Positions 1,849 through 30,030 of a stretch of DNA of 31,282 nt are shown here, in pieces. The notes beneath the pieces were generated by a model that did not search any database, was not told the origin of the DNA, and saw only the letters and a list, made by a program, of their open reading frames with translations. The stretch comes from a virus, in the IMG/VR virus record IMGVR_UViG_3300033980_000392, positions 1 to 31,282 of that record. One strand, written 5' to 3'. The translations under genes and the position numbers were made by a program. Within the stretch, counting starts at the first letter, position 1; each line of letters opens with the position of its first letter.

Positions 1849-1885
1849 ACCCGCCACGCCTCTGATTCATGCGCACCAGGCGGGT
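1849..1885 (+). other. Stem-loop downstream of the plus-strand early operon
   Basis: ACCCGCC at 1849-1855 pairs perfectly with GGCGGGT at 1879-1885 around a 23-base loop. CGCCT and AGGCG offer an alternative pairing. There is no U-run after it, so it is unlikely to be a simple terminator. It is the first of four stem-loops in this gene-free stretch of about 316 bases. Confidence 0.4.
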
Positions 1886-4846: not shown

Positions 4847-5057
4847 GGTTGGTCTCCTTGTTAAAAAGTTGGCTTGCATCTTCTAAAATCTTTTTTGCTA
4901 AGTTTATACTAAATTTTAATATGGTTACTCTACCTGTGCCGGAAACTAAAAAATGTGATTCTCGTTCTAACAGAGCAATCGCTTGTTCAATGTGTTCGAT
5001 CGCTTGTATTCTGTTGTTTTTTACAAAAATAAGTTCGTAATCAGGTCTATCAGTCAT
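4833..5057 (-). CDS. Small hypothetical protein
   Basis: The chosen ATG has AAAGGA upstream and yields 74 residues. The protein has a likely coiled or amphipathic helix (RIQAIEHIEQAIALLERES), a short Gly-rich turn (VSGTGRVTIL) and a second helix (KFSINLAKKILEDASQLF). It overlaps its neighbours by 8 and 14 bases. A longer upstream frame exists but would run through the XRE gene. The family is not recognised. Confidence 0.6.
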   Translation of the reverse strand: MTDRPDYELIFVKNNRIQAIEHIEQAIALLERESHFLVSGTGRVTILKFSINLAKKILEDASQLFNKETNHEPK

Positions 5058-5235
5058 TAGATTGGTCCTTTTGTTTGACAAGGTGTTTGATAAGCAGTTC
5101 CATGGATTTGGGGATGGGGTATTCGCCGGATTCATAGGATCGGATCGTGCGCACGCATTTACCCACAAGAGCGCATAGTCCTGTTTGACTGACGCCCAAG
5201 TGTAGCCTTGCTTGTTTAAATTGCTCGGGTGTCAT
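5050..5235 (-). CDS. XRE-family helix-turn-helix regulator
   Basis: This 61-residue protein is almost entirely one Cro/C1-type helix-turn-helix domain. Helices 2-3 lie at about residues 15-37 (SQTGLCALVGKCVRTIRSYE), followed by the typical SGEYPIP turn. There is no dimerisation or effector domain, so it is Cro-sized. It is the only clear transcription regulator in the minus block and is encoded within the transcription unit headed by the operator-bearing promoter at 5902-5930. It could therefore bind that operator, which is inference. The ribosome site is AAAGGAACC. Confidence 0.75.
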   Translation of the reverse strand: MTPEQFKQARLHLGVSQTGLCALVGKCVRTIRSYESGEYPIPKSMELLIKHLVKQKDQSND

Positions 5236-6228: not shown

Positions 6229-6420
6229 TTAAACAGGAAAATATCCCAGTTGAGCGGCTTCCTTTATGATACATTGCCCGTAGTATTGGGCGGCCTGTCT
6301 GCTGACAAATTGAGAGGATTCACGTTTTGTGAACAGGATTTTGCCGTTTGATTTGACAAGGTATCCCAGCACGTATCCGCCGTTGCCTCTGGTGATTTTT
6401 AGGATGATTTTGGGGTTCAT
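6229..6420 (-). CDS. 63-residue protein, paralogue of the gene at 8802-8993
   Basis: Starting at the ATG preceded by AAAGGAACCC gives 63 residues; a longer frame upstream overlaps the neighbouring gene. It aligns without gaps over most of its length to another 63-residue protein in the same block. Shared words are LKI, VKS, KRE, FVS and a GY-PV C-terminus (QLGYFPV here, HCGYLPV there). The fold looks like β-strands followed by a helix (SRQAAQYYGQCIIKEAAQ). The function is unknown. Confidence 0.65.
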   Translation of the reverse strand: MNPKIILKITRGNGGYVLGYLVKSNGKILFTKRESSQFVSRQAAQYYGQCIIKEAAQLGYFPV

Positions 6421-7493: not shown

Positions 7494-7525
7494 GGTTTTG
7501 GTTTCCTTTGTTGGTGAGATGAAGG

Positions 7526-7542
7526 GGGGGGTATTGCCCCCC
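7526..7542. terminator. G/C-run hairpin (repeat copy 1)
   Basis: GGGGGG and CCCCCC form a six-pair stem with a five-base loop, ten bases past the stop of the gene at 7552-7740. It is flanked by GAGATGAAG and CTTTTGTTG, like the other copies. The T-run faces the plus strand; on the minus strand the hairpin is followed only by CTTCATC. It may act as an mRNA 3' hairpin or attenuator for the minus unit and a terminator for antisense transcripts. Confidence 0.5.
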
Positions 7543-7551
7543 TTTTGTTGT

Positions 7552-7740
7552 TTACTCCTTTGCTTCCAAAAAGTTAAAACAGGTTTCTTTTTTAGCGTGA
7601 TTGAAAGATATTTCTCCATTTTTGACGGCAAAATATCTTCTGTGTAAGCGGAAAACAAAATTGCTTTTGTCTTTAAAAACAATCCCGTCTCTTTCTGCTA
7701 TGGATTTAATTTTTTCATAGTCATATTGTTTTTTAGTCAT
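7552..7740 (-). CDS. Small hypothetical protein
   Basis: This 62-residue basic protein begins MTKKQYDYEKIKSIAERDG. It has a β-like centre with many Arg, Phe and Tyr residues (NFVFRLHRRYFAVKNGEISF). It follows the operator-bearing promoter at 7795-7823 with the standard leader (AAAGGAAACCAAGCC before ATG). The family is unknown. It is the first gene of its unit. Confidence 0.6.
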   Translation of the reverse strand: MTKKQYDYEKIKSIAERDGIVFKDKSNFVFRLHRRYFAVKNGEISFNHAKKETCFNFLEAKE

Positions 7741-7794
7741 GGCTTGGTTTCCTTTGTTGTTTGGTTACGCTTGTTGGTTTGTTTTATTAAAACC

Positions 7795-7823
7795 ATAATA
7801 GTGCAATTATTGCAGCCTGTCAA
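7795..7823 (-). promoter_or_regulatory. Promoter with TGCAATAATTGCA operator (copy 3)
   Basis: On the minus strand consensus TTGACA, a 17-base spacer and TATTAT form a strong sigma-70 promoter. The spacer holds the perfect 13-base palindrome TGCAATAATTGCA (7802-7814), so a bound repressor would block polymerase. An extra ATTGCA half-site lies at 7831-7836 upstream of the -35. It drives the gene at 7740 and probably the next two. Confidence 0.85.
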
Positions 7824-7907
7824 GGAAAAAATTGCATCTTTTGAAAAAAAGAGAAACAGAAAAGCACCACAAGGAAACAGACGTAAAAAGGTGTAGTTTT
7901 TGTTTAC

Positions 7908-7936
7908 TTGACAGTGTGATTTTTGTTTGTTACAAA
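7908..7936 (+). promoter_or_regulatory. Putative plus-strand promoter for the structured RNA
   Basis: TTGACA, a 17-base spacer and TACAAA lie on the plus strand, opposite to every gene nearby. There is no operator palindrome. The start would fall near 7943, just upstream of the stem-loop region, with the G/C hairpin at 8152-8170 and its T-run as a natural end. Confidence 0.45.
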
Positions 7937-7942
7937 GCTTCG

Positions 7943-8175
7943 TGCGCGTAAACTTAATAGCTCAATACCCTGATTGTTTGATAACCTTTAAGATATTCTT
8001 AAAATATATACGCCTAGGGGTCTTTAGGGGAGCGGCAGATAGGCGTTAGCCTCTCGGTGAGCATCCCCTATGAAACAAACCCAGCGTTAGCTGGTTCTTA
8101 AGGGGAGGTCTGTTTAAAATCTTTTGAACGTCTTTTTTCAGGTGGGATGAAGGGGGATAGTAAATCCCCCCTTTT
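7943..8175 (+). ncRNA. Candidate structured non-coding RNA
   Basis: No gene fits here, yet the sequence is dense in complementary segments. TAGGGGA (8025-8031) pairs with TCCCCTA (8064-8070). Inside it AGGC-GTTA-GCCT forms a hairpin at 8041-8052. ACGCCTA (8010-8016) can instead pair with TAGGCGT (8040-8046), an exclusive alternative. CCAGC-GTTA-GCTGG forms a second GTTA hairpin at 8081-8094, and AAACA/TGTTT can enclose it. Three GGGG runs compete for the single CCCC run. A plus promoter and a terminator bracket the region. Transcription from the minus strand is also possible; there the two loops would be UAAC. Confidence 0.45.
8152..8170. terminator. G/C-run hairpin (repeat copy 2)
   Basis: GGGGGAT and ATCCCCC form a seven-pair stem with a five-base loop, followed on the plus strand by CTTTTGTT. 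It lies 16 bases past the stop of the minus gene at 8187 and carries the same GGGATGAAG and CTTTTGTTGG flanks as the other copies. It would end a plus-strand RNA and may stabilise or attenuate the minus transcript. Confidence 0.55.
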
Positions 8176-8186
8176 GTTGGTTGTGA

Positions 8187-8372
8187 TTAAGAATATTCTA
8201 AAATAATTTCGTTCGATGCTTGGATTAGTTTTTTAAGGATCTCTATGTCAATAGGGCGGGTGGCTGTTGCCAGTTTATAGTGCATAGATGGCAAGTTTTC
8301 TTTGGCTATTTCAACCATAAGTTTTTTGTGTCTTTGGCTAGGTTTTAGTTTGTTTGTGGTTGTGTTGGTCAT
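8187..8372 (-). CDS. Small hypothetical protein
   Basis: The 61-residue helical protein has a Thr/Asn-rich start (MTNTTTNKLKPSQRHKK) and two amphipathic helices (LMVEIAKENLPSMHYKL and IEILKKLIQASNEIILEYS). It is a single-gene unit: operator promoter upstream at 8425-8453, AAAGGAACCC leader, and a G/C hairpin just after the stop. No family is recognised. Confidence 0.6.
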   Translation of the reverse strand: MTNTTTNKLKPSQRHKKLMVEIAKENLPSMHYKLATATRPIDIEILKKLIQASNEIILEYS

Positions 8373-8509: not shown

Positions 8510-8530
8510 GGGGGGATTCACCATCCCCCC
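8510..8530. terminator. G/C-run hairpin (repeat copy 3)
   Basis: GGGGGGAT and ATCCCCCC make an eight-pair stem with a five-base loop, followed on the plus strand by TTTTGTTGG. It is located 15 bases past the stop of the minus gene at 8545. Flanks match copies 1 and 2, so the unit end is a repeated module. Confidence 0.55.
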
Positions 8531-8801: not shown

Positions 8802-8993
8802 TTAAACAGGCAAGTACCCGCAATGGTAAGCCTCATTAATGATTTTGTTTCCAAAATCAATCGCATCCTTTTTGGAAACAAAGGAAACCTTTTCTCTTTT
8901 AGAATAAAGGCACTTGTTTTGCGATTTGACAACGTAAACAGGTATAAAAACATTTTGGGTTTTAATAATTTTTAAATTGATTGAGCAATCCAT
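8802..8993 (-). CDS. 63-residue protein, paralogue of the gene at 6229-6420
   Basis: This protein has the same length as its paralogue and aligns almost without gaps: LKI near the start, VKS, KRE, FVS and the C-terminal GYLPV. It starts MDCSINLKIIKTQNVFIP, has basic β-like strands (SKREKVSFVSKKD) and then a helix (AIDFGNKIINEAYH). It is the first gene behind the operator promoter at 9047-9075, with the leader AAAGGATCACC. The function is unknown. Confidence 0.7.
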   Translation of the reverse strand: MDCSINLKIIKTQNVFIPVYVVKSQNKCLYSKREKVSFVSKKDAIDFGNKIINEAYHCGYLPV

Positions 8994-9075: not shown

Positions 9076-9172
9076 CAAGAAAATGCAAGAAAATGAAAAA
9101 AAAAATAGGAAAAAAGAAAGGGCTTGATTTTATAGACTTTTGTTGTCATACGTATACAAAAGGGAGGATTTT

Positions 9173-29788: not shown

Positions 29789-30030
29789 TTAGCCCCTTGG
29801 TTAGCGATAAAGGTGGGGATGGCGTTTTCGATATTGGTAACGCGCTCTTCGAGTTTGGCAAAATCGGATTGCTCATCTTCTTTTTTCATAATCGCCACCA
29901 TTACGGCAAGGTTTTTATCCATGTCCGCTTGCGTTTTCAGAAAATAGGTTCCAGCCCCCGCAATGGTGGCGATGACAATACCAATAAGCGTTATAAGCAA
30001 CTTGGTATTTGTATTGCTGCTGTCATCCAC
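29785..30030 (-). CDS. Membrane-anchored coiled-coil protein (spanin- or XhlA-like)
   Basis: The 81-residue protein has one TM segment (about residues 11-30, LLITLIGIVIATIAGAGTYF). A helical, heptad-like domain follows (DEQSDFAKLEERVTNIENAI) with a short tail. It immediately precedes the lysozyme with a four-base overlap. This is the topology of an inner-membrane spanin or an XhlA-type accessory protein. No outer-membrane lipoprotein partner is visible nearby. Confidence 0.65.
   Translation of the reverse strand: MDDSSNTNTKLLITLIGIVIATIAGAGTYFLKTQADMDKNLAVMVAIMKKEDEQSDFAKLEERVTNIENAIPTFIANQGAK

Follow-up and report, generated by a model that had tools for sequence, protein, structure and literature searches.

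A putative stand-alone RNA gene with covarying hairpins in the small-gene array of podovirus-like phages

Comparison with related phage contigs indicates that positions 7943–8175 of the window (the whole stretch analysed, a 31,282-base virus contig from IMG/VR) contain a structured RNA, encoded by a stand-alone plus-strand gene that runs from promoter to terminator. We favour, at a probability of roughly 60%, the reading that this is an accessory RNA gene of podovirus-like phages, mobile as a cassette, whose product would act in trans. The versions we compared form a conserved unit with covarying hairpins, which is distributed patchily and set among changing neighbours.

The window carries terS, terL, portal, scaffold-like, capsid and then tail genes in that order, with matches to PHROG packaging families for terS, terL and portal. 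There is no close terminase among named phages, the nearest being 32.5% identical, and DNA comparison of the region with named phages gave only chance matches of about 31–56 bases. About 32 IMG/VR contigs have terL in common at an identity of at least 80%. The carriers are a group of podovirus-like, uncultured phages.

Extent and structure of the RNA

The RNA lies in a gap of 446 bases without a gene (7741–8186), flanked by minus-strand ORFs. A sequence-only reading had singled out this gap together with two GTTA hairpins (8041–8052 and 8081–8094), three GGGG runs (8017–8020, 8027–8030 and 8102–8105) facing a single CCCC run (8065–8068), and a hairpin with a T-run at 8152–8170; all of these are present in the window. 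The promoter (7908–7936, plus strand) consists of TTGACA (7908–7913), a 17-nt spacer and TACAAA (7931–7936), and both its upstream stretch TTTTTRTTTACTTGACAGTG and the end of its spacer TGTTTGTTA are conserved as far as the most divergent version, L032. The description of this promoter as consensus-like fits the perfect −35 box and not the −10 box, which is weak and varies among relatives (TACAAA, TAGAAA, TACGAA, TAGCAA). With its start placed from the promoter and its end from the terminator, the RNA would be about 196 nt long (7943–8138, plus strand). The putative intrinsic terminator (8112–8138, plus strand) is formed by the A/U hairpin GTTTAAAATCTTTTGAAC and the following GTCTTTTTT; it is found in the window, L037, L018 and L041/L044, is altered in L023 and L032, and is not conserved in L022. 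The conserved unit extends from just upstream of TTGACA through this A/U hairpin and its T's, and promoter and terminator move together as they would in a stand-alone sRNA gene (in L022/L023, where a clear T-run is absent, the terminator is unclear).

The T-run hairpin at 8152–8170 (G5/C5, plus strand), originally counted as part of the RNA, lies outside the conserved unit, behind the convergent ORF's stop. We assign it to the neighbouring units; it is one of three similar hairpins after minus-strand ORFs, is absent behind the RNA in L022, L023 and L032, and is a possible second terminator. All three G5–6/C5–6 hairpins (7522–7546, 8152–8170 and 8510–8530) stand directly behind minus-strand ORF stops with the T-run on the plus strand, an arrangement that may shield the array from antisense transcription.

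Taken by itself, the window sequence did not fold more stably than chance (z = −0.81 for the 238 nt at 7943–8180 and −0.62 for the 196-nt transcript). Values of −0.6 to −0.8 give no proof of a structured RNA, so that approach was dropped and the question had to be settled by relatives. The L032 version reached z = −4.84. When the versions are compared, the following elements can be read on the plus strand. A 5' A/U hairpin (TTTAAGA-TAT-TCTTAAA, 7987–8003) has as its counterpart TTGATTAA-TTG-TTAATCAA in the matching place of L032 (L032:404–422, where the alignment is uncertain). It is followed by the invariant block ACGCCTWGGGGTMTT, which includes the first GGGG run (8010–8024), and then by helix P1 (8025–8070), in which UAGGGGA (8025–8031) pairs with UCCCCUA (8064–8070) and GC (8032–8033) with GC (8061–8062), leaving A8063 bulged. 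The stem bases of P1 are invariant with the sole exception of a G-U to G-C change in L023. Inside P1 lies hairpin 1 (AGGC-GUUA-GCCU, 8040–8053, with a closing pair in some versions), and beyond it hairpin 2 (CCAGC-GUUA-GCUGG, 8081–8094). Unconstrained RNAalifold returned P1, both hairpins and an imperfect closing helix ACGCCU/AGGGG, so that ACGCCT may pair imperfectly with AGGGG at 8101–8105. The blocks that remain unpaired and invariant are ACGCCUWGGGGU, the P1 inner loop GGCAGA/UCGGYGA, AUGAAACAAA and UUCKUAAGGGGA. A kink-turn in the inner loop was considered and rejected, as by eye the second G-A step is absent.

The case for a conserved structure comes from base changes that preserve pairing. 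In L032, hairpin 1 has UGAC/GUCA in place of AGGC/GCCU, is 42 nt longer and gains a closing G-C pair (GUGAC...GUCAC), so that two core pairs and the optional closing pair are changed on both sides; in hairpin 2, CUUGC-UUUA-GCAAG replaces CCAGC-GUUA-GCUGG, with two pairs changed on both sides. Counted over the six versions, 97.1% of cells pair, and five pairs are doubly changed against 1.5 expected in shuffles (none of 500 shuffles reached five) and none in any of the slid controls. One of the five is the outer closing pair of hairpin 1, formed in only two of the six versions; the other four, in pairs formed by all versions, all come from L032 and may represent few events. Compensatory changes of the kind that mark a conserved structured RNA are thus present, mostly through one divergent sequence. 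The sequence-only reading had looked to such changes in relatives as support for a structured RNA of no known class, and both parts of that proposal stood: the two GTTA hairpins covary, and no covariance model of Rfam 15 reached its gathering score in the region or in L032 (only weak chance matches, of 18.6 versus 65 bits and 18.4 versus 56 bits). The RNA appears to be non-coding and to represent an unregistered family.

The same reading had also proposed mutually exclusive pairings, with two examples, and this is half supported. CCCC at 8065–8068 can pair either with GGGG at 8027–8030, as in P1, or with GGGG at 8102–8105, in an alternative helix (UCCCCU 8064–8069 with AGGGGA 8101–8106) that encloses hairpin 2 and excludes P1; the two helices have similar predicted energies. 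The competing bases are invariant in all six versions, which leaves no covariation test, P1 and the alternative varying only by the one G-U to G-C change. The predicted share of P1 is 0.98 in the window, 0.03 in L037, 0.49 in L018, 1.00 in L044, 0.97 in L023 and 1.00 in L032, and that of the alternative helix 0.97 in L037, 0.51 in L018 and 0.00–0.03 in the other four. Since small sequence changes tip the predicted balance, the modelling suggests two states of similar energy. The second example, a switch between ACGCCTA and TAGGCGT, was discarded: L032 destroys this pairing while it keeps the hairpin, rebuilt as GTGAC...GTCAC, and retains ACGCCT without a partner.

Distribution, mobility and surroundings

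Blast against terL-anchored loci, followed by pattern scans, located the RNA on nine other contigs, which together with the window give six distinct versions: L004 (identical to the window), L037, L017/L018, L022/L023, L041/L044 and the divergent L032. Searched with a covariance model (R1), six carrier records each yielded a single copy and ten further records yielded none; of these ten, G003, G007 and G009 are about 35–38 kb long. We did not find the RNA outside this phage group; a genome scan with a 20-base core gave two chance matches with no other RNA element nearby (L048 and L049), a relaxed pattern with P1 left free gave 82 stretches of which none was a new RNA by the covariance model, and L050–L052 were likewise rejected as chance matches.

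Within the group, the RNA gene is better conserved than terL. Between L018 and L044 the RNA gene is 98.6% identical as against 70.8% for terL DNA (3' part), and between the window and L018 the values are 95.4% and 80.4%. The carriers are scattered over the TerL tree (in which some rows are partial) rather than forming one group, with four changes of which at least two are forced by well supported branches, and L022 and L023 share almost nothing directly around the unit with the others. We conclude from these comparisons, above all from the L018/L044 pair, that the RNA gene moves between related phages as a cassette. Since it comes and goes between relatives and yet is better preserved than a packaging gene, it probably has a specific role for host or phage, and a core conserved more strongly than the terminase gene suggests that its molecular partner is fixed. 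Accessory ("moron") cassettes of phages are as a rule regarded as protein genes; the unit exchanged among these related phages is an RNA gene, described here with a covariance model, coordinates and a two-state hypothesis.

Several further features were noted in the window. An identical 62-aa ORF (100%) is found on the left side of the RNA here (7552–7740) and on its right side in L018 (6189–6377), from which we deduce that the small-gene array is rearranged around the RNA. Four minus-strand promoters of the form TTGACA-N4-GCAAtwaTTGC... (9075–9041, 8453–8419, 7823–7789 and 5930–5896) carry the operator-like palindrome TGCAATWATTGCA in their spacers, a pattern that recurs in relatives; as the palindrome is common to all four, the array looks as if it were one repressor regulon, for which a 61-aa helix-turn-helix protein (5050–5235, minus strand; HTH_3, just below the Pfam cut-off) is a candidate repressor. 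Two paralogous 63-aa proteins (6229–6420 and 8802–8993, minus strand; 43% identical) are encoded in the array, one or both of which occur in relatives. A plus-strand promoter candidate close to terS, CTTGATTTTATAGACTTTTGTTGTCATACG (9123–9152), is found in nearly all relatives and resembles the RNA promoter. Finally, a match to the Rfam abiF RNA at 1850–1885 (plus strand) scores 37 bits, exactly the gathering score, and is possibly just a terminator hairpin, lying shortly past an ORF stop at 1820.

Proposed action and rival readings

We propose that the RNA gene, placed in the small-gene array to the left of the terminase genes, would be transcribed from its own promoter into an RNA of about 196 nt that ends at its own terminator. 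A conserved partner would be bound by the invariant unpaired blocks, with a host RNA or an RNA-binding protein as the most likely candidate, and exchange of CCCC between GGGG 8027–8030 (P1 closed) and GGGG 8102–8105 would open or close the binding surface. That the RNA may act in trans on a fixed partner is suggested by its own promoter and terminator, by the lack of an adjacent co-oriented gene and by the long unpaired blocks that stay unchanged. When five segments of the RNA were searched for antisense targets in the phage, the best candidate, a pairing of a conserved block with the gene that begins at 30030, came to roughly the 5% level when set against its own shuffles, which is not significant over five segments. 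As no convincing target turned up in the phage, a host partner is the better guess. Tentatively, and with far less weight, we also consider a bistable RNA decoy for counter-defence, whose invariant single-stranded blocks would titrate a host defence factor or regulator; its gene would be kept in a phage accessory island where small genes are repressed together through a common operator (TGCAATWATTGCA).

It is unlikely that the RNA is instead a cis leader of the late operon, on the pattern of lambda pR'-6S RNA-tR' or of the HK022 put RNA, with a promoter firing towards terS and the RNA or a phage factor allowing polymerase to read through the terminator into the packaging genes. The RNA does lie upstream of terS on the same strand, with about 196 nt from promoter to terminator; L022 and L032 have only minute minus-strand ORFs between the RNA and terS, and CTTGA-N8-13-TTTGTT occurs in the window only at the RNA promoter and at the conserved terS-proximal promoter. 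However, at least 12 relatives lack the RNA but retain terS together with a conserved promoter of its own, CTTGATT...TTTTGTTGTCATAC, which the window, L018, L037 and L044 carry besides the RNA. Since most carriers have both and the terS promoter persists in relatives where the RNA is missing, the RNA is not a leader on which the late genes depend. Moreover, in most carriers RNA and terS are separated by as much as 1 kb of convergent genes that have promoters of their own, and the terminator is not conserved in L022. Nor is the RNA placed as a riboswitch or 5' leader of a co-oriented gene, since convergent ORFs lie between it and terS, the next gene in that orientation, at a distance of about 0.2–1.1 kb.

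That the region is a DNA element, a site of recombination or packaging with palindromes mistaken for RNA hairpins, is decidedly improbable. Proximity to terS, cassette-like movement and the fact that the hairpins are also DNA palindromes would fit it, but promoter and terminator travel along, the G-U to G-C change and bulged helices suit an RNA, there is a single copy per genome, and absence from many relatives makes the element unneeded for packaging. We give slightly less credence still to regulation in cis, by antisense pairing, of the convergent accessory genes on the minus strand. Strand and convergence agree with it, some 50 nt separating the 3' end of the RNA from the stop of the 61-aa ORF (8187–8372, minus strand), and the description of the RNA as antisense to the accessory operon was correct as to strand. 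Control of that operon is not supported: neighbour genes vary on both sides, and in place of the 61-aa ORF other carriers have ORFs of 154 aa (L018, L044) or 189 aa (L037), or minute ORFs next to terS (L022, L032), while the RNA persists. With the opposite gene varying there is no conserved overlap with a conserved partner, and antisense pairing with the convergent neighbour is not what is conserved; the conserved RNA stops short of the ORF, and conservation is in the core hairpins and not at the 3' end. That the region is translated into a short protein or leader peptide (frame GSLGERQ..VSIPYETNPALAGS, or ATG AAA CAA ... TAG) is very unlikely indeed, for although the frame is open in all versions and preserved by the 42-nt insertion of L032, neither the start codon (GTG to GCG in L023) nor a ribosome site is conserved, third positions make up only 8 of the 18 variable core positions, and the changes fit the hairpins instead.

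Comparison with known phage RNAs

The 6S RNA of phage lambda, the late leader between pR' and tR', is about 195 nt long, runs from promoter to terminator and lies upstream of the late genes. The RNA described here resembles it in all three respects, at about 196 nt, but many relatives lack it and still have a late operon with a promoter of its own. The put RNA of HK022 (about 70 nt, two stem-loops) is likewise a structured phage RNA made right after the promoter, and acts in cis on antitermination of the downstream early operon (PMC9378689); here, by contrast, a terminator follows the RNA, no co-oriented gene comes next, and size and convergent genes differ, so we do not class it with put. Racr RNA anti-CRISPRs share with it a small phage-encoded RNA, an own promoter and an accessory region, and mimic a CRISPR repeat (PMC10651486), whereas the stem-loop here measures 46 nt, or 88 nt in L032, and holds no fixed repeat-like unit, which sets it apart from Racr. 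The anti-sRNAs AgvB and EcOnc, moron sRNAs of lambdoid prophages, are 51–60 nt long with a conserved 3' part and a variable 5' end (PMC4104026). They differ from the present RNA, which at about 196 nt has a conserved central core and several helices, and no sequence relation was seen. In both cases, small phage RNA genes with a conserved core occupy an accessory site near a late promoter, convergent with moron genes, and AgvB and EcOnc act in trans on host regulation (PMC4104026), as we infer that the present RNA would.
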